DNA from: a virus
Length of the DNA stretch: 30,629 bases
IMG/VR virus record: IMGVR_UViG_3300036828_000480
Location: 1 to 30,629 of that record
Direction: 5' to 3' (one strand)
Shown here piece after piece: positions 12,624-28,495 of this stretch. Position 1 is the first letter of the stretch. Each line of letters begins with the position of its first letter. Both the position numbers and the translations under genes were made by a program. Under the pieces are notes generated by a model. That model made no database searches and was not told the origin of the DNA. It worked only from the letters and a program-made list of their open reading frames with translations.

Positions 12624-14552
12624 CTAACCAGCCCCGGATGACACCGCGTCGGGCGCGGACGCTTGGGCCGCGGGCGCGGGCGCTGGCGCTGGCGCGCTTG
12701 CCGTTCGATTAGGCGCGTTCTGATTGATGCCGGACCATTGTTGAAGGCCGAGTTTGTTCATTGAAGTCCTCCACGGACCCCAGCCCTCTTTCTTGGCGTG
12801 GTCGAGGGCGTATTTGACCTGTTCCTGCCAATATTTGTGATCCCACGGCGCGTGTCCGGTGTCGCGCATGTACTGGTCGCCCATAGCCTTTCCGTCGGGG
12901 GCAAGGTGGAGCTGGAAGCCGCCGAAGCTGGTCGGTTTCCCGTCTCGAAAATCGCCGTAGATGTTCTGACCGAAGTTGCTTTCGGTGGCGAGCATCTTGG
13001 AGGCGGTGTCAGGGTCCATGCCGATCTGGCTGGCATAACTGCGGGTGAAGTTGTCGTAGGCTGACGCGGTGACGCCGGGCGTCCCCCTGTCGCTTGGAGC
13101 GTTTGGCACTTTGCTGGCGTCGAATTGTGTCTTGCCAGAGTCCCGTTGGTTGCGGCCGGGCGGGACGTTGCCGACGCTATCCAGATCGTCGCCGGTCTGG
13201 TCGCCACCGTCGGTCTGGTCGCCGCCTGCCTGTCTTTGGTTCGCCTGCCCTAGCAGGCTATTGCCAAACATGGCTTGCATCATCTGCGACGTCGGATCGG
13301 TGCCGCCGCCCTCTGCAATGCCGCGCATGTGATGCGGGTGGAGCGGCAACCAGCCGCCGCCGGGATGGTGGGCGTGCATCTGCCAACCCTGCATCGGGTG
13401 GTGGTAAGGCCAGTGGCCTTCGCCGCCGTGGTGGAAGCCGCCGAAGTGGCGGAAGCCGCCGCGGCCGTGGCGGCCGCCGAATCCGCCGGACAGGAGCATG
13501 GGCAGGAGCATCCCCATCGCCGCCATGGCGAGCTGGGGCAGGGCGGACGGGATGGCTTGGCCGCCGGTGACGTCGCGCATGATCGGGCCGGGCTGGGGCG
13601 GGATTAGGCCGGGCTTGTGGGTCGGCGGTTCGAGTCCGGGCTTGTGGGTCGGCGGGGGCACCTTGGTTGGCAGGTCGGCGGTTGTGGGCGCCGCCGCCTG
13701 CGGACCCTTTTTTTTGACGACGATATCGTTCCCTTGATCGTCTTTTTTCGGGAGCGGCTGGCCGCCGACGGTTGACGGCGGGGCCGGGCCGGTCGGTGTC
13801 GCGCTCGGGGGCGGGGCCGGTCCTGTGGAGGCGGCAGCGGTGTCAGGCGGCTGCGGCGGTTGATCGGCTTGGTCTGCCGTCTGGCCTGCAACCGCATCCG
13901 AACCAATACCGCCGTAACCAGCCGCCATCGCGCCCGGCAAAGCCCGAATCCCTGCGTCCGTGACGTTTTGCGGCGATGTCGGGCCGGTTTCGCCGGGCGT
14001 GGGCATGGGCAGCGATGCAGCGCCGGTTTCCCCCGGCGTGAGCTGCGGCAAGGGCGCGGGTTGCGGCGCAGGCTGGCCCAAGGCGCCCGGGACCGGCAAT
14101 TGGCTCGCCTGCTGCCCGCGATAGGTCTGCGGCTGGGGATTCCACGGGTCTTGCCGCTGCCCTTGGGCGAGCTGGGTCAGGGCTTTCTTGAGCCCGTCGA
14201 CGGCCGACTGCGGCGCGTATTGCTGGGCTGGCGTCTGCTGCTGTTGGTTTGGCTGCGGCGCGCCGCCCGACTGCGTTCCGCCGATGCTCGATTGCTGCTC
14301 TTGCGGCGAGCCTTGGCCGGGCGGGTTGATGGTTTCCTGCGCGCCGATCGAGCCGGTCGGATCAACCGCCTGTTGAACCGCTTGGGCTGACGCCGCTGGC
14401 GTCAAGGCAGAGCCAAGCCCGGTCGCGGCGTCGCTGACCGCCGTTCCAGCGCCGCTAAAAAGCGAGCTTAGACCGCTGCCAAGAGAGGCAAGCGGGTTGC
14501 CGCCGCTGCTTGACGAGGAGCCGCCGCCAAAAATATTGCTCAGATCACCCAA
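12624..14552 (-). CDS. Internal virion protein with C-terminal lytic transglycosylase-like domain
   Basis: 642 residues. The start is TTG at 14552, with GGAGG five bases upstream and overlapping the previous stop. Residues 1-350 are low-complexity Ser/Gly/Pro/Gln. A His/Gly-rich block follows (FGGRHGRGGFRHFGGFHHGG and beyond). Residues about 495-609 form a lysozyme-like fold with the catalytic glutamate near residue 524 (MLATESNFG), then SFGGFQLH and a WQEQVKYALDHAKK helix. This is the layout of virion transglycosylases that locally open peptidoglycan during DNA entry. The His-rich block could bind metal. It is the most confidently assigned of the ejection proteins. Confidence 0.75.
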   Translation of the reverse strand: MGDLSNIFGGGSSSSSGGNPLASLGSGLSSLFSGAGTAVSDAATGLGSALTPAASAQAVQQAVDPTGSIGAQETINPPGQGSPQEQQSSIGGTQSGGAPQPNQQQQTPAQQYAPQSAVDGLKKALTQLAQGQRQDPWNPQPQTYRGQQASQLPVPGALGQPAPQPAPLPQLTPGETGAASLPMPTPGETGPTSPQNVTDAGIRALPGAMAAGYGGIGSDAVAGQTADQADQPPQPPDTAAASTGPAPPPSATPTGPAPPSTVGGQPLPKKDDQGNDIVVKKKGPQAAAPTTADLPTKVPPPTHKPGLEPPTHKPGLIPPQPGPIMRDVTGGQAIPSALPQLAMAAMGMLLPMLLSGGFGGRHGRGGFRHFGGFHHGGEGHWPYHHPMQGWQMHAHHPGGGWLPLHPHHMRGIAEGGGTDPTSQMMQAMFGNSLLGQANQRQAGGDQTDGGDQTGDDLDSVGNVPPGRNQRDSGKTQFDASKVPNAPSDRGTPGVTASAYDNFTRSYASQIGMDPDTASKMLATESNFGQNIYGDFRDGKPTSFGGFQLHLAPDGKAMGDQYMRDTGHAPWDHKYWQEQVKYALDHAKKEGWGPWRTSMNKLGLQQWSGINQNAPNRTASAPAPAPAPAAQASAPDAVSSGAG

Positions 14553-15729
14553 CTGCGCCTCCCATGATGGCTTGCGCGAGCTGACTGAGGGTCGTTGGAC
14601 TGAGCCCGCCTAGGATGTCGGTGAGGATCGAACCGATGCCCGACGTTGACCCGGCGAGCTGCGTGGCTGACGGGGCGAGGCTTGTCGGGGCGCTGGCGAC
14701 GGGGCTCGGGCTCGCCGTCCCGCCGGCCGAAGTGGCCGGCGCCGCCGTGGGCGCAGTTGGTGATGCAGCGGTGGCGACGGCGGGAGCTGGCGCGGCTGGC
14801 GCTGGCGCGGGCGCCGGCGCAGTTGCGGCTACGGCGGGCGATGCTGGCGTTCCGACTGCGCTCGATCCTTTTGCGCCGGGGTCGCCAACGCCTTTCGTGC
14901 CGCCAAACCCGGTCGCGTCGGCCATGCCGCCGAAAGTCATAGCCGGCGTTCCGGTTGGGCTTTCTGAGGCGTTGCCCGGTCCCCCGCCAAGGGCGATGCT
15001 GTGCGCCAGCGAGGCGAGGCCGGAAGGCGCGCCTTGGGGTGGGCCGGTCAAACCTCTCAAGGCCGAGTTGAGGGCGGCGACTTGGCTTTGGCCGATGCCG
15101 CGCACGCCCATTCCACTCAGCGACGAGACTGAGACAGGCGTCGTCGCGGTCTGGACGCCGCTCAAAACGCCGGGCGGCACGCCCATCTGCGAGGCGAGGC
15201 CCATTAAGCCCTGAGTGAGGGCGTTTATTCCTTGGGGCGCGCCGAAGCCTGACCCGCCAGCGGCGGTTCCGCCGCCGCCGCCGGTCGCCGCGCCTCCGGG
15301 GCCGCCGCCGCCGACGCCTCCGGCTGGCCCGGCGCTCGCGCCAGGACCGCCGCCGCCGCCACCGCTGACACCAGCCGTTGAGACGCCGCCGGCCGGTCCT
15401 ACGCCCGCGTTTGCCGTGCCGCCGCCGCCAAAGCCGACCGAGCCGCTGACGCCGCCTGAAACGCCGCTGGCGGTCCCGCTGTCGCCGCCGCCCATGCCGC
15501 CGCCGAAGCTGCCGGTTCCGGTCGAGCTTGTGCCAGCGGGCGCGCCAGTCGTTCCGCCTTGCCCGCCGAAGCCAGCCGCCGCCGCATCGGCCGCAGCCGA
15601 CGACGCCGCAGCCGCGCTTGTCCCGTCGCCGCTGGAGCCGTCGCCGCCGCTAGAGCCGTCGCCGCCGGATGAACCGTCCCCGCTTTGCCAAAAAACGCCG
15701 AATAACCACTGTTTTGTATGGTTATACAT
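14545..15729 (-). CDS. Gly/Ala-rich virion protein candidate
   Basis: 394 residues from ATG at 15729, with GGAG eight bases upstream. After a short aromatic start (QWLFGVFWQ), it has a tandem GSSGGD repeat, then long Gly- and Ala-rich stretches, an Ala/Pro block and a hydrophobic end (IGSILTDILGGLSP...AQAIMGG). Such composition predicts disorder. The antisense strand also has a long Pro-rich ORF, but the chain of overlapping leftward genes supports this strand. Position before the transglycosylase protein suggests an internal virion protein. Confidence 0.6.
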   Translation of the reverse strand: MYNHTKQWLFGVFWQSGDGSSGGDGSSGGDGSSGDGTSAAAASSAAADAAAAGFGGQGGTTGAPAGTSSTGTGSFGGGMGGGDSGTASGVSGGVSGSVGFGGGGTANAGVGPAGGVSTAGVSGGGGGGPGASAGPAGGVGGGGPGGAATGGGGGTAAGGSGFGAPQGINALTQGLMGLASQMGVPPGVLSGVQTATTPVSVSSLSGMGVRGIGQSQVAALNSALRGLTGPPQGAPSGLASLAHSIALGGGPGNASESPTGTPAMTFGGMADATGFGGTKGVGDPGAKGSSAVGTPASPAVAATAPAPAPAPAAPAPAVATAASPTAPTAAPATSAGGTASPSPVASAPTSLAPSATQLAGSTSGIGSILTDILGGLSPTTLSQLAQAIMGGAVG

Positions 15730-17998: not shown

Positions 17999-18298
17999 TC
18001 AATCGTCGCGACGCCCGCGGAGTTCGCGCGCAATCAGGTCCGAGTTGTACGGCGGTGGTGGCTTGCTGGTGCCCTTGTTGATGTCGCGCCCTGACGTGCC
18101 GTCGATCCGGTCCATGCCGAAGTCGCTTCGGGTCGAACGGTCGGACCACACGGCAGGGCCCTTCGGGCCGACTTCGGGCGTCGTCCCCATGCGCAGCGGG
18201 CCGACAAGATCGCGATCGGAGCGGTGATAGCCGTCAGGGACGGCGAAATAGGCTTCGGGCTCGCGCTTGACGCGCGGCCATTCGGATTGCTTTGCCAT
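17999..18298 (-). CDS. Small basic, Pro-rich hypothetical protein
   Basis: 99 residues; the ATG at 18298 overlaps the stop of the tiny basic ORF (TAATG). That ORF's CGG AGG codons give GGAGG five bases before this start. The sequence is charged and mostly without predicted structure (SEWPRVKREPEAYFAVPDGY, DLVGPLRMGTTPEVGPKG), ending in RELRGRRDD. No motif. It lies between RuvC and the endolysin. Confidence 0.6.
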   Translation of the reverse strand: MAKQSEWPRVKREPEAYFAVPDGYHRSDRDLVGPLRMGTTPEVGPKGPAVWSDRSTRSDFGMDRIDGTSGRDINKGTSKPPPPYNSDLIARELRGRRDD

Positions 18299-18372
18299 TA
18301 CGTCCTCCGTCGCTTCCGGCGTCCTTTTCGGAGGTTGCGCCGACGGGCTTTCTTCTGCGCTCGCGTTCCCAT
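18298..18372 (-). CDS. Tiny Arg/Lys-rich ORF after RuvC
   Basis: 24 residues. MGTRAQKKARRRNLRKGRR is followed by KRRRT; 14 of 24 residues are Arg or Lys and none is acidic. The start overlaps the RuvC stop (TGATG) and the stop overlaps the next ATG (TAATG), so the ORF fills exactly the gap between two good genes. Its CGG AGG Arg codons supply the Shine-Dalgarno of the next gene. It belongs in style with the basic ORFs at 18902-19666. A nucleic-acid-binding peptide is likely, but a translational relay without protein function is possible. Confidence 0.55.
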   Translation of the reverse strand: MGTRAQKKARRRNLRKGRRKRRRT

Positions 18373-18905
18373 CACGCACGCCCTTTGACTGCGTGTAGCG
18401 TGTCGATCGGGACGAGCTGGACAACATCGTTGAAGCGCAACAGTCCGGCGAGCCCGATCAGCGCCGCGTCGGCGAGCCCGTCATCGTTCTTGTGCGCAAA
18501 CTTCCCGGCGTGACGTGGCCAGCGGCGAATCGCTTCTGCGCGTGCCGCATCTTTCGCGCCATCTTTGCCGGGAGGCAGTCCGATGACACGCTTCCATTGC
18601 GCAGGCTGAATGAACAGCATGGGGACGGCTGCGGCGGCGAGTACGCCACGAATGACGCCCTTGCAGTCGCCGAACTGAAATGCTCCCACGGCGCCTTCGC
18701 CGGGACGCGGACCAACGCGCTCGACAAAGGCTCTTGTTGCGTGAGTTTTGTATACCAGCTCGGCAAGCAGGGGCGCATTGATCGTCCGTCGGTTCTTCGG
18801 GCCGTCGTGCAGGCAAGGCATGTCGAACACGTCGATCAAGTCGCCGTTGTCGTTCAAGTGCCCGATGCCGCCTGTCACGCCGATATCGATTCCAAGGATG
18901 GTCAT
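18372..18905 (-). CDS. RuvC-like Holliday junction resolvase
   Basis: 177 residues; ATG at 18905 overlaps the previous stop (ATGA). RNase H-fold active site: Asp7 in ILGIDIGVTGG, Glu62 in AFVERVGPRPGEG, and Asp142 and Asp146 in KNDDGLADAAL. The AQWKRVIGLPPGKDGAK segment is also typical of RuvC relatives. It should cut branched DNA before packaging and would complete the ERF/exonuclease recombination set. It is placed in the late operon, flanked on both sides by tiny basic ORFs. Confidence 0.85.
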   Translation of the reverse strand: MTILGIDIGVTGGIGHLNDNGDLIDVFDMPCLHDGPKNRRTINAPLLAELVYKTHATRAFVERVGPRPGEGAVGAFQFGDCKGVIRGVLAAAAVPMLFIQPAQWKRVIGLPPGKDGAKDAARAEAIRRWPRHAGKFAHKNDDGLADAALIGLAGLLRFNDVVQLVPIDTLHAVKGRA

Positions 18906-19069
18906 CGCCGCCTGCTCCTAACCGGCCCGGTGCGAGCGCCAGGACGCGGCGATCGGCCGCTTCGACCCTTCCCGCGGCGCCCTCGCGACCAATCAGGCGC
19001 CCAAGCGCCGTCGCTCCACGGCTGCCGGACAGTTGGTCCTCTGCCGGGCGCCTTGAAGCGACGAGCCAT
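18902..19069 (-). CDS. Small Arg-rich ORF, number 7 of the cluster
   Basis: 55 residues from ATG at 19069 with GGAGG eight bases upstream, the GGAGG lying in the end of the previous ORF. It begins MARRFKAPGRGPTVRQPWSD, has three tryptophans in the middle, and ends with GPVRSRRR. Fifteen Arg and two Lys stand against two Asp. Start and stop both overlap neighbours (TGATG and ATGA with RuvC). Probably disordered; RNA or DNA binding is likely from charge. I do not recognise a family. Confidence 0.6.
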   Translation of the reverse strand: MARRFKAPGRGPTVRQPWSDGAWAPDWSRGRRGKGRSGRSPRPGARTGPVRSRRR

Positions 19070-19215
19070 CACGGGTTCCTCCGTCCTCGACGGCCTCGCC
19101 CGGTTCCCTGCCGATGACCGCGCGCCCGCTTGACGCGGGTGGTCGGTCGCTTGGTCGGGAGTTTGCCAGCGGGATCGACGCGGCTGCGAGGCCCAAGCCT
19201 AATGCCTCGTGCCAT
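19069..19215 (-). CDS. Small Arg-rich ORF, number 6 of the cluster
   Basis: 48 residues from ATG at 19215, with GGAGG five bases upstream; that GGAGG consists of the last Arg codons of the previous ORF. MARGIRLGPRSRVDPAG begins it and GRGRRGRRNP ends it. Fourteen Arg and three Lys, one Asp. The stop overlaps the next ATG (TGATG). It shares the Arg-Gly-Arg-Arg end with its neighbours and a MAR start with the next ORF. Unknown function. Confidence 0.6.
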   Translation of the reverse strand: MARGIRLGPRSRVDPAGKLPTKRPTTRVKRARGHRQGTGRGRRGRRNP

Positions 19216-19217
19216 CG

Positions 19218-19328
19218 CTACCTCCGTCGTCCTCGCCGTCGGGCTCGGGCCGCTTTCCGCGACGCCGGAACCAACACCATTCTTCGTCGATCTTCAGTGA
19301 AGTCGAGCCAACCTAAATTAGGATTCAT
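19218..19328 (-). CDS. Arg-rich ORF, number 5, paralogue of number 2
   Basis: 36 residues from ATG at 19328 (ATGA overlap with the previous ORF). It begins MNPNLGWLDFTEDRRR and ends ARARRRGRRR. The opening matches MSPKLDWLDFTEDRRG of the ORF at 19539-19619, and the ends match too, so one arose from the other. Only the middle differs. The split into an amphipathic acidic head and a basic tail suggests a head that binds a protein and a tail that binds nucleic acid. The last codons CGG AGG form the ribosome site of the next ORF. Confidence 0.65.
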   Translation of the reverse strand: MNPNLGWLDFTEDRRRMVLVPASRKAARARRRGRRR

Positions 19329-19444
19329 AGCCGCCTGCCTTTCCGATATGAGTTAAGGCGGGGGCGCCAGCTCGGCAGACGCCAGCTTTTCGGCTGTAAC
19401 TGCCTGCGCAGGTTTTGAGTGTTGCGCAGGCCAGTCTTGGGCAT
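19325..19444 (-). CDS. Basic ORF, number 4 of the cluster
   Basis: 39 residues from ATG at 19444, three bases after the previous stop. It starts MPKTGLRNTQNLRRQL, has two Trp in a SWRLPSWRP segment and ends SYRKGRRL. Nine Arg and three Lys, no acidic residue. Its Shine-Dalgarno is weak, so it probably depends on reinitiation after the previous stop. The stop overlaps the next ATG (ATGA). The Trp/Arg pattern is like membrane-active or RNA-binding peptides, but that is only a comparison. Confidence 0.5.
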   Translation of the reverse strand: MPKTGLRNTQNLRRQLQPKSWRLPSWRPRLNSYRKGRRL

Positions 19445-19447
19445 CTG

Positions 19448-19525
19448 TTAACGCCCGCGTCTGCGCGCTCGGATACGTCTCGCGCGGCGTGTCATCCGCA
19501 GCGGTCGGGACCTTCGCCAAGCCAT
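19448..19525 (-). CDS. Arg-rich tiny ORF, number 3 of the cluster
   Basis: 25 residues from ATG at 19525 with a strong AGGAGGGG ending three bases before the ATG. MAWRRSRPLRMTRRARR begins it and ARRRGR ends it; 13 of 25 residues are Arg and none is acidic. Such a strong ribosome site on so short an ORF argues that it is translated. Nucleic-acid binding is the obvious guess. Confidence 0.6.
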   Translation of the reverse strand: MAWRRSRPLRMTRRARRIRARRRGR

Positions 19526-19538
19526 CGTCCCCTCCTAC

Positions 19539-19619
19539 TTACCTCCGGCGGCCTCGACGGCGGCCACGGCGACCACGACGATCTTCGGTGAAATCAAGCC
19601 AGTCGAGTTTGGGGGACAT
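19539..19619 (-). CDS. Arg-rich tiny ORF, number 2, paralogue of number 5
   Basis: 26 residues from ATG at 19619, with AGGAG five bases upstream. MSPKLDWLDFTEDRRG is followed by RRGRRRGRRR. The acidic, hydrophobic head and pure Arg/Gly tail are shared with the ORF at 19218-19328. Ten of 26 residues are Arg. The DNA of the two heads is similar but differs at several third positions, so selection on protein is plausible. Confidence 0.65.
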   Translation of the reverse strand: MSPKLDWLDFTEDRRGRRGRRRGRRR

Positions 19620-19627
19620 GGTTGCTC

Positions 19628-19666
19628 CTATCGGTAATAGCGACGCCCTCGGCGACGCACACGCAT
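19628..19666 (-). CDS. Arg-rich mini-ORF, number 1 of the cluster
   Basis: 12 residues, MRVRRRGRRYYR, from ATG at 19666 with GAGG six bases upstream. It starts 15 bases after the tail gene's stop, and the next ORF starts eight bases after its own stop. Seven of 12 residues are Arg. It is too short to be sure of by itself, but it repeats the RRRGRR motif of its neighbours and has a proper ribosome site. Confidence 0.45.
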   Translation of the reverse strand: MRVRRRGRRYYR

Positions 19667-19681: not shown

Positions 19682-21319
19682 TTAAGCGCCGAACAAGGTC
19701 CGCTCCTCGGCGGCCAAGTGCAAACGCTCAATCGTAAAATCGGGCGAAACGCTGGTTAAGTCAATCGAGCCCCAAATCCCGCCGCCCTCGATCGGCGCGG
19801 GAATGATCTTGTGTCCTTCGCCGGGCGCCAGATCGAAGGCGACGCCCTGCACGCCGCCCGGCACGCCGCCATCGCCGCATGTCACGGTGCCGGTGATCTG
19901 GACGCCGCGGCCGTCGTTGTCGTCGAGTTCGCAATAGAGCCGCTTGAAATTCTTGATCGTGAGCTGCGAGTTTGGCGCCGCCAGCGTGCGCAGCGACTTC
20001 GAGGCGTATCGCTTGATCAGCGTCGGGTCCGGCTGCGCGAACAGTCGATAGAGGCTCGTCCCGTCGGTGCCATAGGCGGTCGGACTGCTGTCTTGTTCAT
20101 AGGTGCCGATGTTCGTCAACTGGACCGTTTGACTGGCGACGGACCAAAATTCATGGCCGCGCGTCGGGTGGTACATGAGTAACAGGTTTCGCACGACGCC
20201 GAACGGATCTTTGAACCGTCCGTTGGCGAGGACGACGCGGAAGCCGTGCATCGTCGCGGTGGCGAAGGTCGGAAGATAGAGCGACGTGTCGAGGGTGTTC
20301 CAAATGTTGGTAGTCTTGTCGCCGATCGGCTGCGCGTCGCCGCCCTGCATGAGGAAAAACCCGGCCTTGTTGAACAGGATCGAATAGCGTCCGATGACGC
20401 CGACCGGACGCGGGAACCGCTGGCCGACTTGCGGATCGACGTTTTCGTAATTGAAGTTGGTCGTGTAGGGGCTTTCCGGCGTGCCGGACCCGGTGAGGAG
20501 GAGGTTGCTAATCAGATCGGTTGACGAGTCGCCGAAGACGAACATGTAGCCGCCGACGGCGTGCAAATCCATATACGAGTAGACCAGCTTATCCCCAAAG
20601 TACCCGAACGAACCGCCACCGTCGGTCGTCGAGAAGTCCGCTCCGTTCGACGGCGCTGAAAAACTGATCACGTCCTTCCCAGCAACCCACAATCGAGACT
20701 GATACACTTCCATCGCGTAGATGCCCGGAAGCCCCGTCGGCATCGGCAGCGGCGTCGCGCCGGGATCTGTCTCTTGCAGATCGGTCAGCCAATCCGGCGC
20801 CGGATCGCCGGGCGCGCTCAGTGTCGTTCCGTCCCATCCGTACAATCCTCCCGGGCTTCCGAACAGGACGCCGCCTTGCTGGCCTGCCGTCGAGCCGAAG
20901 AACGCCGGTCGCCAGACTTTCGCGCTGGCCCAATATTGCGGCGCGATCGGGTGCCAGACGACGCCGCTGGCGCGGAGGCCAGTGACGATTCCGGTGTTTA
21001 AATCAACCTCTTCGATGGACCCATCCGAAAGAAAGAGCCAGCCCATAGCGCCAGGAGGAGGAGCGCCAAATTGAGGGGTCTGATTCCCGTAAAAGCCAAA
21101 AAATACGCGCAGGATCGAAAGGTTAGACCCCGCGGGGACGGTGTATATCGGGGCAGACGGTCCCCAGCATGTACGCAGATTTCCGGGGCCGATCGCGAAT
21201 AGGTTTTCGTCCCACCATTCTTCGTTGTCATCAATGCTTCCCCGCTTCGATTGCTGGTTCAGTCCCTTCCACTGATCCAGCGTGATTAGCTCGGGGGGAT
21301 TATCGCTTTGGATCGGCAT
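19682..21319 (-). CDS. Tail-tube/DNA-stabilisation type protein (tail tubular B-like)
   Basis: 545 residues from ATG at 21319; the longer frame to 21409 overlaps the previous gene and is rejected. Beta-rich with many Gly/Trp/Tyr repeats (GGLYGWDGTTLSAPG, YQSRLWVAGKDVISFSAPSN, GRYSILFNKAGFFLMQGGDA), a pattern of beta-propeller-like podovirus tail proteins such as P22 gp10 or T7 gp12 types. It follows the adaptor gene as in those phages. It should form the nozzle or tail tube that closes the portal. The 23-base palindrome lies directly before the ATG. Confidence 0.75.
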   Translation of the reverse strand: MPIQSDNPPELITLDQWKGLNQQSKRGSIDDNEEWWDENLFAIGPGNLRTCWGPSAPIYTVPAGSNLSILRVFFGFYGNQTPQFGAPPPGAMGWLFLSDGSIEEVDLNTGIVTGLRASGVVWHPIAPQYWASAKVWRPAFFGSTAGQQGGVLFGSPGGLYGWDGTTLSAPGDPAPDWLTDLQETDPGATPLPMPTGLPGIYAMEVYQSRLWVAGKDVISFSAPSNGADFSTTDGGGSFGYFGDKLVYSYMDLHAVGGYMFVFGDSSTDLISNLLLTGSGTPESPYTTNFNYENVDPQVGQRFPRPVGVIGRYSILFNKAGFFLMQGGDAQPIGDKTTNIWNTLDTSLYLPTFATATMHGFRVVLANGRFKDPFGVVRNLLLMYHPTRGHEFWSVASQTVQLTNIGTYEQDSSPTAYGTDGTSLYRLFAQPDPTLIKRYASKSLRTLAAPNSQLTIKNFKRLYCELDDNDGRGVQITGTVTCGDGGVPGGVQGVAFDLAPGEGHKIIPAPIEGGGIWGSIDLTSVSPDFTIERLHLAAEERTLFGA

Positions 21320-26755: not shown

Positions 26756-28495
26756 CTAATGCTTGGTTTGTCCAGCGGGCGCGCCCTTGCGCCGCGAGCC
26801 GCCGCCGCCCTCTTTGATCCCCAGCACCGCCTTAACGAGTTCTTCCTTCTTGTCTTCCTTGGCGGCTTGGGCTTGGGCTTTTTGCCGTTGTTTTAACCGG
26901 GCCAAAAGCAATTCCGCACCCGGCGGATGTAACATGTGGATCAGATCCTCGGCATCGATCGCTCCCGCGCGGGCAAGCGCGATTGCAACTTGTCGGTTAT
27001 CCTCCGCAAAAGCTGGCGACGCTGAATGGCTGTCAACTTGGACTTGGAAATTTCCGGGGAGCTGGCTGAGTAGGAACTCTTGGGCGGTGTCGGCGGTGGT
27101 GTAGACGAGCGCATCCATGGCTTGCATGATGCGGAGGGCGAGCCAACCCACGTCCGCCAGTTGTCTCTCAATTCGAGCGGCTTGCTTGATAAGGTGGGGT
27201 GATGAAGTTCTAACCAGAGTCTGAGCGTGGACTCCAGCGCGGACTCCCGACTCGCCCTGTCCTGACATGATCGGGCTGAAGCCGCTAGCTTCATCAAACA
27301 GCTTGAAAACAAACTCAAGTTCTTCCAAGTAGTTTTCCGGTGGGGGGTCAAGTAGTTTCGACGCTTTCGCATTGGGATTTGGGTCGTTAAGAAAACCTCC
27401 CTCATTGATAATCTTGAAGTATTGTTCTTCGGTGACGGAGGTGAAGCCGGAAAAGACTTGTGGAGCATTGACGTTCCTATCCCACATGACTTTGATGTCG
27501 CGCAGCCGCTTGTTCAGCATGTCCTGCAACATCTGGACGTCGGCGATGATCGAACGGCCCCAAAAGTAGCCGGGCGTCTCCTGGCCCTGCACCTTGACAA
27601 AGGGCGACTTGCCGGGGATGCGCGACAGGTTGCGCCGGGTGTCATCGCCTTCGATGATGATCGGGTCATGACCGTAAAGGCATTGGATTGTCGTCCAGTC
27701 CTCGTCGCGGTCGCGATCCTTGATCCATACCTCGCAATGCTTGACGGTCGGGGCGAATCGCCGCGTCGGGCGCCACGGCGTCGGCGTGGGAAAGACGTTG
27801 ACGATGCCCGCGGCGGATGACGGGGCGTCGCCAACGTCCCCCAACGGTTGCAGGCCTCCTACAACCATCGAGTGAAAATAGGTCGCTTCCTCCTCGTCGC
27901 GGTCAGGCCCGGGATCGTCGTCCAGTTGCTTCATGATTTCCTCGTAACGAGGATGGTCCATGAGCGAGGTCCGCAGCCGCGATTTGGTCGGATAGCTGAC
28001 GTGACAGAACGCCTCTTGCTCGTCGAGATGCTGCGTCGTTTCGGATAGGACGCCGAAATTCTGCGGGTGGACTTGCGCCACCTTGAAGGTGCCGCTGTCG
28101 CCGTCAGGCAAAACCTTTAACAGGCCGCAGCCATTGATCAGGCTCCATGTCACGGTGTCGGCGAAAGTCACGTCGCCGTCGATTTGGCGAAAGTCGGCCG
28201 ACAGCTTTTCGCCGACAAGCTCGGAGCGTTCGAGGACGCTTTCGTCTTCGCCGCTGTCATAGACCAAGCGCAGCCGGACATCGGTCGGCTGCATGAGGAA
28301 TCCGGCCAGTTTGTCGACGAAGGACTTGGTTTTGTTGTAGATCGCCGCCCGGCTATCGGCCGCCCCGGTGTAGTAATATTGCCCCGCCCGGGTGTAGATC
28401 ATTCCGCGCTCGGACGACGACGCCATGCTTTCATCAATGATTTCCTTCGTCCAAGCCCGAAGATGCTCGGGCTTAGAGGGGATTTTAAGCGCCAT
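26756..28495 (-). CDS. Portal protein (podovirus head-to-tail connector)
   Basis: 579 residues; ATG at 28495 overlaps the previous stop (TGATG). Typical podovirus portal pattern: an N-terminal helix with ERGMIYTRAGQYYYTG, a wing with QPTDVRLRLVYDSGEDESVL, a clip and stem region around GYFWGRSIIADVQMLQDMLN and RLRDIKVMWDRNVNAP, and a basic disordered end. The size fits the T7-like connector family (about 530-600). Twelve copies should form the DNA channel at one vertex. No large terminase is seen; upstream, beyond the right edge, is the likely place. Confidence 0.85.
   Translation of the reverse strand: MALKIPSKPEHLRAWTKEIIDESMASSSERGMIYTRAGQYYYTGAADSRAAIYNKTKSFVDKLAGFLMQPTDVRLRLVYDSGEDESVLERSELVGEKLSADFRQIDGDVTFADTVTWSLINGCGLLKVLPDGDSGTFKVAQVHPQNFGVLSETTQHLDEQEAFCHVSYPTKSRLRTSLMDHPRYEEIMKQLDDDPGPDRDEEEATYFHSMVVGGLQPLGDVGDAPSSAAGIVNVFPTPTPWRPTRRFAPTVKHCEVWIKDRDRDEDWTTIQCLYGHDPIIIEGDDTRRNLSRIPGKSPFVKVQGQETPGYFWGRSIIADVQMLQDMLNKRLRDIKVMWDRNVNAPQVFSGFTSVTEEQYFKIINEGGFLNDPNPNAKASKLLDPPPENYLEELEFVFKLFDEASGFSPIMSGQGESGVRAGVHAQTLVRTSSPHLIKQAARIERQLADVGWLALRIMQAMDALVYTTADTAQEFLLSQLPGNFQVQVDSHSASPAFAEDNRQVAIALARAGAIDAEDLIHMLHPPGAELLLARLKQRQKAQAQAAKEDKKEELVKAVLGIKEGGGGSRRKGAPAGQTKH

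Follow-up and report, generated by a model that had tools for sequence, protein, structure and literature searches.

The closest described phage proteins are J of the microviruses and VP8 of the gokushoviruses, which are Arg/Lys-rich DNA-binding proteins of 25–40 residues (PMC3091885). According to a reference cited in PMC7096446, J has a role in DNA packaging and is bound to the genome in the particle. In eukaryotic dsDNA viruses, small Arg-rich protamine-like proteins are thought to neutralise the packaged dsDNA (PMC6163548, PMC5491326). Examples are baculovirus P6.9 and the adenovirus core proteins, which usually number one to three and do not form a motif-bearing operon array. The standard view is that tailed phages use a motor to package naked DNA (PMC5491326), and they have been distinguished from viruses whose packing involves positively charged domains (PMC7096446).

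Sequence comparison indicates that a large group of uncultured tailed phages has six to ten strongly conserved genes for highly positive tiny proteins in the gap behind the tail gene (those of the window are listed below, with the proteins behind ruvC). Like J and VP8, these proteins are small and Arg/Lys-rich; F2–F5 and F8 are at or near 25–40 residues, whereas F6 and F7 are longer. Microviridae have small circular ssDNA genomes with one such protein each, whereas the present locus lies among tailed-phage portal, capsid, and tail genes and the phage group has up to ten different families. No sequence relation to J or VP8 was detected in the PHROG and Pfam searches or with the F3, F4, and F8 profiles in the PDB, indirect comparisons whose sensitivity is limited for short basic peptides. 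Unlike J/VP8 and the protamines, the phage peptides come from an operon that encodes several different proteins and is arranged around a DNA-junction-nuclease slot with a changeable occupant. The short Arg-rich stretches with fixed non-basic positions also resemble arginine-rich-motif (ARM) peptides of the lambda N type. Lambda N acts early as a transcription antiterminator and has a part that binds RNA polymerase, whereas the array peptides are stand-alone and belong to a late structural operon. Gene callers and family libraries pass over ORFs of this size, which is why a conserved operon encoding proteins as short as 12 residues has escaped notice in a large phage clade.

Organization of the array and its surroundings

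The window, which is the whole stretch of DNA analysed, is a virus record of 30,629 bases. Its minus strand carries a structural module consisting of portal, major capsid, and tail-type genes, the array, and then genes for large proteins; the array thus shares its strand with the portal, capsid, and tail genes. Replication genes (primase/helicase and exonuclease) lie on the plus strand. The portal (26756–28495, minus strand) has distant homologues annotated as portal and shows a weak SU10-portal match, and the major capsid gene matches PHROG 9953. The large proteins beyond the array have no PHROG matches and, judging from their position, may be internal virion proteins. The features of the array region are as follows.

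19682–21319, minus strand: tail-type structural gene upstream of the array; the most conserved anchor (53–89% identity in relatives), without a Pfam or PHROG match
19628–19666, minus strand: F1, MRVRRRGRRYYR, 12 aa, without Asp or Glu
19539–19619, minus strand: F2, MSPKLDWLDFTEDRRGRRGRRRGRRR, 26 aa, acidic/aromatic head and Arg tail
19448–19525, minus strand: F3, MAWRRSRPLRMTRRARRIRARRRGR, 25 aa, without Asp or Glu
19325–19444, minus strand: F4, 39 aa, ...SWRLPSWRPRLNSYRKGRRL, without Asp or Glu
19218–19328, minus strand: F5, 36 aa, accessory; F2-like head followed by MVLVPASRKAARARRRGRRR
19069–19215, minus strand: F6, 48 aa, MARGxxLGPRSRVDPAG...
18902–19069, minus strand: F7, 55 aa, PWSDxAWPxDW core and TPRPGGRTGPVR end
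18372–18905, minus strand: RuvC-type Holliday junction resolvase (PHROG 1770, E = 1.2e-26)
18298–18372, minus strand: F8, MGTRAQKKARRRNLRKGRRKRRRT, 24 aa, directly behind ruvC
17999–18298, minus strand: F9, conserved protein of 99 aa, start overlapping the F8 stop by 1 nt

The minus-strand gap from the tail stop (19682) to the ruvC start (18905) contains exactly seven ORFs, which all begin with ATG and tile positions 19666–18902 with 12, 26, 25, 39, 36, 48, and 55 codons. An earlier note on this DNA had described these ORFs on the late strand, with no acidic residue in the first, third, and fourth, a ribosome site before five of them, and junctions of ATGA, TGATG, or a few bases. The coordinates and translations bear out this description. 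Ribosome sites of the GGAG/GAGG/AGGA type precede F1, F2, F3, F6, and F7, and the junctions are ATGA at F4/F5, TGATG at F6/F7, and ATGA (4-nt overlap) at F7/ruvC, with the others 2–13 nt apart. The seven ORFs of that description stand, but its boundary at RuvC does not, as F8 is of the same kind and lies behind ruvC (18372–18298), coupled by 1-nt overlaps to both ruvC and F9.

The acidic/aromatic head WLDFTEDRR is common to F2 and F5, which the earlier note did not mention. F5 of the window is a chimera in which this F2-type head sits on the MVLVPASRKAARARRRGRRR body; in relatives, the body starts with MARRR. F9 has the core AGPLRMGTxPxVGPKG and no Pfam or PHROG match, and is coupled to F8 in many of the loci that have both.

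Comparison with chance ORFs

A GC content of 64–65% favours Arg codons, and basic ORFs could arise by chance in such DNA. However, 3,000 dinucleotide-preserving shuffles of the gap gave a mean of 0.5 and a maximum of 4 basic small ATG ORFs, and none reached the six observed inside the clipped gap. Such ORFs cover 74% of the gap compared with a mean of 7% after shuffling, and no shuffle reached the observed coverage. Throughout the 30.6-kb window, on both strands, the only basic ORFs of 12–60 codons with a ribosome site are F1, F2, F3, F6, and F7.

Conservation in related phages

IMG/VR was searched with the tail protein (34 loci), the F6 protein alone (68 loci), F4 (41 loci), and a tail profile (80 loci). 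After removal of duplicates, the tail-protein, F6, and F4 searches yielded 78 distinct contigs including the window, the relatives' contigs reaching 40–43 kb. An array could be mapped in 73 of them, and several contigs end inside it. Profile matches among the 78 contigs numbered 43 for F2, 65 for F3, 73 for F4, 23 for F5, 73 for F6, 73 for F7, 40 for F8, and 69 for F9. The first slot is occupied by an F1-like Arg-rich ORF of 10–30 residues (for example, MARRRRRGRRGRR) in at least 38 of the 73 mapped loci. Apart from local losses and swaps, these loci keep the arrangement tail gene, F1, F2, F3, F4, (F5), F6, F7, nuclease, F8, F9.

The loci found with the tail profile were scored separately, so that they were chosen independently of the array itself. 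Basic tiny ORFs occur on the coding strand in all 71 loci whose downstream sequence is long enough to be tested (2–7, mean 5.2 per ~1 kb); the corresponding means are 0.48 for the opposite strand and 0.25 for the tail gene. In distant members, whose tail proteins are 53–60% identical, different additional tiny Arg-rich ORFs occupy the same region. ORFs of fewer than 30 codons make up 38% of the array ORFs.

Maximum-likelihood codon models (IQ-TREE, GY model) gave ω values of 0.060 for F2, 0.047 for F3, 0.098 for F4, 0.064 for F5, 0.101 for F6, 0.219 for F7, and 0.084 for F8; RuvC from the same loci gave 0.126. The exact values are rough because synonymous changes approach saturation when all sequences are taken together, but their direction is not in doubt, and ω = 1 was rejected for every family tested (2ΔlnL 213–1029). 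Between the window and its relative L001, F2 is identical with four synonymous and no nonsynonymous changes, and F8 has seven synonymous and no nonsynonymous changes. The shuffles, the opposite strand, the tail-gene control, the conservation, and ω all contradict the chance reading, which we consider practically negligible. That the array ORFs are real protein-coding genes is close to certain on this comparative evidence. The earlier note had proposed genes of an undescribed kind, had asked for dN/dS over the cluster, and had named loss or disruption of the ORFs in relatives as evidence against them; the outcome favours genes in each respect, with kept order, purifying selection, conserved coupling and ribosome sites, and no database family.

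Two other candidate explanations were rejected. A split pseudogene of one basic protein does not fit, as every ORF begins at a conserved start of its own and belongs to a separate family. An Arg-codon attenuation leader does not fit either, as the six Arg codons are mixed, there are several distinct ORFs, and the residues are conserved.

Signals for expression are also conserved. An SD sequence precedes the start in 35 of 37 loci for F2, 47 of 62 for F3, 49 of 70 for F7, and 22 of 39 for F8, whereas the frequency for all ATGs in the same loci is 11.6%. The count for F6 (79/92) includes some alternate-frame matches inside F9, and F4 usually lacks an SD sequence (present in 23 of 72 loci). Stop and start codons overlap by 1 nt (spacing −1) at F4–F6 in 52 loci and at F6–F7 in 24 loci, and −1 is the commonest F8–F9 spacing (18 loci). 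A scan of the coding strand around the array found no promoter- or terminator-like site, an Rfam search of the window found no element, and a tRNA scan likewise gave nothing useful. The ribosome sites, the 1-nt overlaps, and the lack of a promoter or terminator on the coding strand fit one late transcript with coupled translation. The conserved coupling could also mean that the chain of starts and stops is what matters and that the peptides are inert, a relay that the earlier note had listed among possible roles. Because the amino acids themselves are under strong purifying selection, with ω = 1 rejected in every family tested, we regard a pure relay as very improbable.

Database searches

The small proteins tested have no match in Pfam or PHROGs. 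In tblastn searches of cultured phages, the tail gene, F6, and F7 found nothing, and F4 gave three matches at chance level (E 1–9). Searches of prokaryote genomes with F6 and with the tail profile returned no relative, and hence pointed to no host or prophage. Scans of viral sequences with the F8 and F3 profiles gave six and two loci, respectively, all on contigs already collected; these numbers are small because short queries miss the confirmation threshold. Taken at the level of sequence, the region represents an operon segment of at least seven Arg-rich proteins (12–55 aa), with an eighth behind ruvC, conserved in order, sequence, and coupling. We rate the gene system as categorically new, because no family, arrangement, or relative was found in the libraries searched and in the open-access literature, although the underlying physical principle may prove old.

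The nuclease slot

The slot between F7 and F8/F9 holds a RuvC-type protein in the window and its close relatives. At least 21 loci have a VRR-NUC-type protein in the same slot, of which the one representative examined scored above the Pfam cut-off. The slot proteins of other loci appear to be PDDEXK_15/Hjc-like, an assignment that is suggestive, with representatives below the Pfam cut-offs. The tiny genes are kept while the nuclease type changes.

The array harbours several junction-nuclease types between F7 and F8/F9, and F7 overlaps ruvC by 4 nt. These features raise the possibility that the peptides assist the nuclease or recombination by binding DNA that is branched or concatemeric and delivering it to RuvC, VRR-NUC, or Hjc. 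However, the F7–F8/F9 gap measures 1.7–2.6 kb in eight loci (L038, L040, L050, L054, L055, L058, L084, and L085), and the persistence of the small proteins through changes of nuclease type indicates that they are not specific partners of one enzyme. We consider such a helper role improbable. The slot of L027 holds a Gly-rich gene resembling window positions 14545–15729.

Composition and possible functions of the small proteins

Arginine makes up 30.7% of the array residues compared with 4.2% of those in the tail protein, and the R/K ratios are 5.2 and 2.0, respectively. These differences indicate that arginine itself is favoured beyond the effect of GC content. A ratio of at least 4 has been used to define protamine-like proteins (PMC7096446), and that of the array lies above it. 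The rarer Arg codons CGA, AGA, and AGG are commoner in the array, where they account for 34% of Arg codons versus 16%. The summed net charge of the eight window peptides is +93, and hydrophobic residues (ILVFMW) constitute 8–25% of the peptides. Besides the basic parts, there are conserved non-basic segments, namely WLDFTEDRR in F2, SWRxPxWRPR in F4, LGPRSRVDP in F6, and PWSDxAWPxDW and TPRPGGRTGPVR in F7, which argue for specific partners. AlphaFold models of F4 and F7 are of low confidence and mostly unstructured (pLDDT 68 and 60), which would fit disordered Arg-rich peptides.

The tiny proteins probably bind nucleic acid, and the target is perhaps the packaged genome. The earlier note had offered four roles without preferring any; we keep two of them, DNA condensation or packaging and the binding of RNA or ribosomes. 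We tentatively prefer, at slightly less than even chances, that they are late Arg-rich mini-proteins acting on the phage's own DNA, because the late position, the dominance of arginine, the predicted disorder, and the junction-nuclease neighbour favour it. The array proteins would be made late, alongside the tail and internal virion proteins. Their Arg-rich parts would bind nucleic acid, and WLDFTEDRR (F2/F5), PWSDDAWPSDW (F7), LGPRSRVDP (F6), and SWRxPxWRPR (F4) would tether each protein to a different partner. At the end of infection, they might neutralise or organise the DNA in the head, or accompany it through the portal and tail, on the model of J/VP8 and the protamine-like proteins of eukaryotic viruses. 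The swappable Holliday-junction-type nuclease inside the array would fit genome maturation before packaging, although the nuclease and the array may simply share a cargo site. This reading has to postulate a way in for the peptides, given the prevailing view that the DNA of tailed phages is packaged naked. It is possible, though doubtful, that in these tailed dsDNA phages the six to ten Arg-rich mini-proteins together form a multi-component, protamine-like nucleoprotein core or act as a set of packaging cofactors. Binding to the packaged genome would contradict the view that tailed phages pack their DNA with only a motor, polyamines, and metal ions.

A point against the preferred reading is that the constraint on exact residues (ω as low as 0.05) is tighter than neutralisation of bulk charge would need, which suggests specific RNA, DNA, or protein targets. 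The main rival is that the peptides bind RNA through arginine-rich motifs, or bind ribosomes, and regulate the late mRNA of the phage, antitermination, or translation in the host; the high conservation of individual residues in F3 and F8 speaks for it. F3 (TRRARRIRARKRR) and F8 (AQKRAARRNLRKARRRR) are short runs rich in Arg in which certain A, N, L, and T positions are invariant, similar in style to arginine-rich RNA-binding peptides such as that of lambda N. However, the F3, F4, and F8 profiles match no PDB chain, ribosomal proteins included, at E values up to 10; a late structural position is unusual for antiterminators; and the window has no Rfam element. On balance, we judge RNA or ribosome binding to be rather unlikely; if true, the array would provide a novel group of takeover peptides.

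The host is the target of many small phage proteins (reviewed in PMC11323111), and F4 is rich in Trp, Arg, and Pro, as might be expected of membrane-active or antimicrobial-like lysis aids; inhibitors of host enzymes would be another host-directed role. The membrane-active role suggested in the earlier note is disfavoured by the very low hydrophobic content given above. Genes directed at the host usually vary between relatives, whereas the order and sequence of the array are kept across a clade with tail identity down to ~53%. A host-directed function is quite improbable in view of these features.

A second, distant phage clade

The portal of the window is ~30% identical to those of two metagenomic Manatee Spring phage genomes. 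Behind both portals, and in 61 of 69 further IMG/VR loci, there are tiny ORFs with ribosome sites, which mostly encode Lys/Arg peptides of 12–15 residues of the MYKKMKRGRKTRR and MARKARKGRKGRK types. The count of these ORFs is 91 for the sense strand and zero for the opposite strand. The positions of the peptide pair are as follows.

L036:8277-8437 and L037:4758-4919, and behind the portal in L229-L308: second-clade peptide pair (the clade is large and mostly fragmentary in IMG/VR)

The ω values of 0.14 and 0.27, for which ω = 1 was rejected, are provisional because the sorting of the two peptide types is crude. The genome place differs from that of the window array, and the peptides are too short to judge shared ancestry. 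The adjacency of two tiny Lys/Arg peptides to a portal gene favours our preferred reading, that the array proteins act on the phage's own DNA. If the protamine-like core reading is true, the second-clade peptides would represent a minimal version of the strategy of the window. The finding also suggests where to look for more such genes, namely among small basic ORFs with ribosome sites in gaps between structural genes.

The annotation of MW202825 places a minus-strand hypothetical gene over these ORFs (8246–8506 of L036). Between the two peptides there is another ORF-like element, of very small size (M/V-A-A/S-F-P-L...) and with partial conservation of its DNA, at L036:8343–8369, at about 4825–4850 of L037, and in L229–L231; it could be a third micro-ORF or an RNA element.
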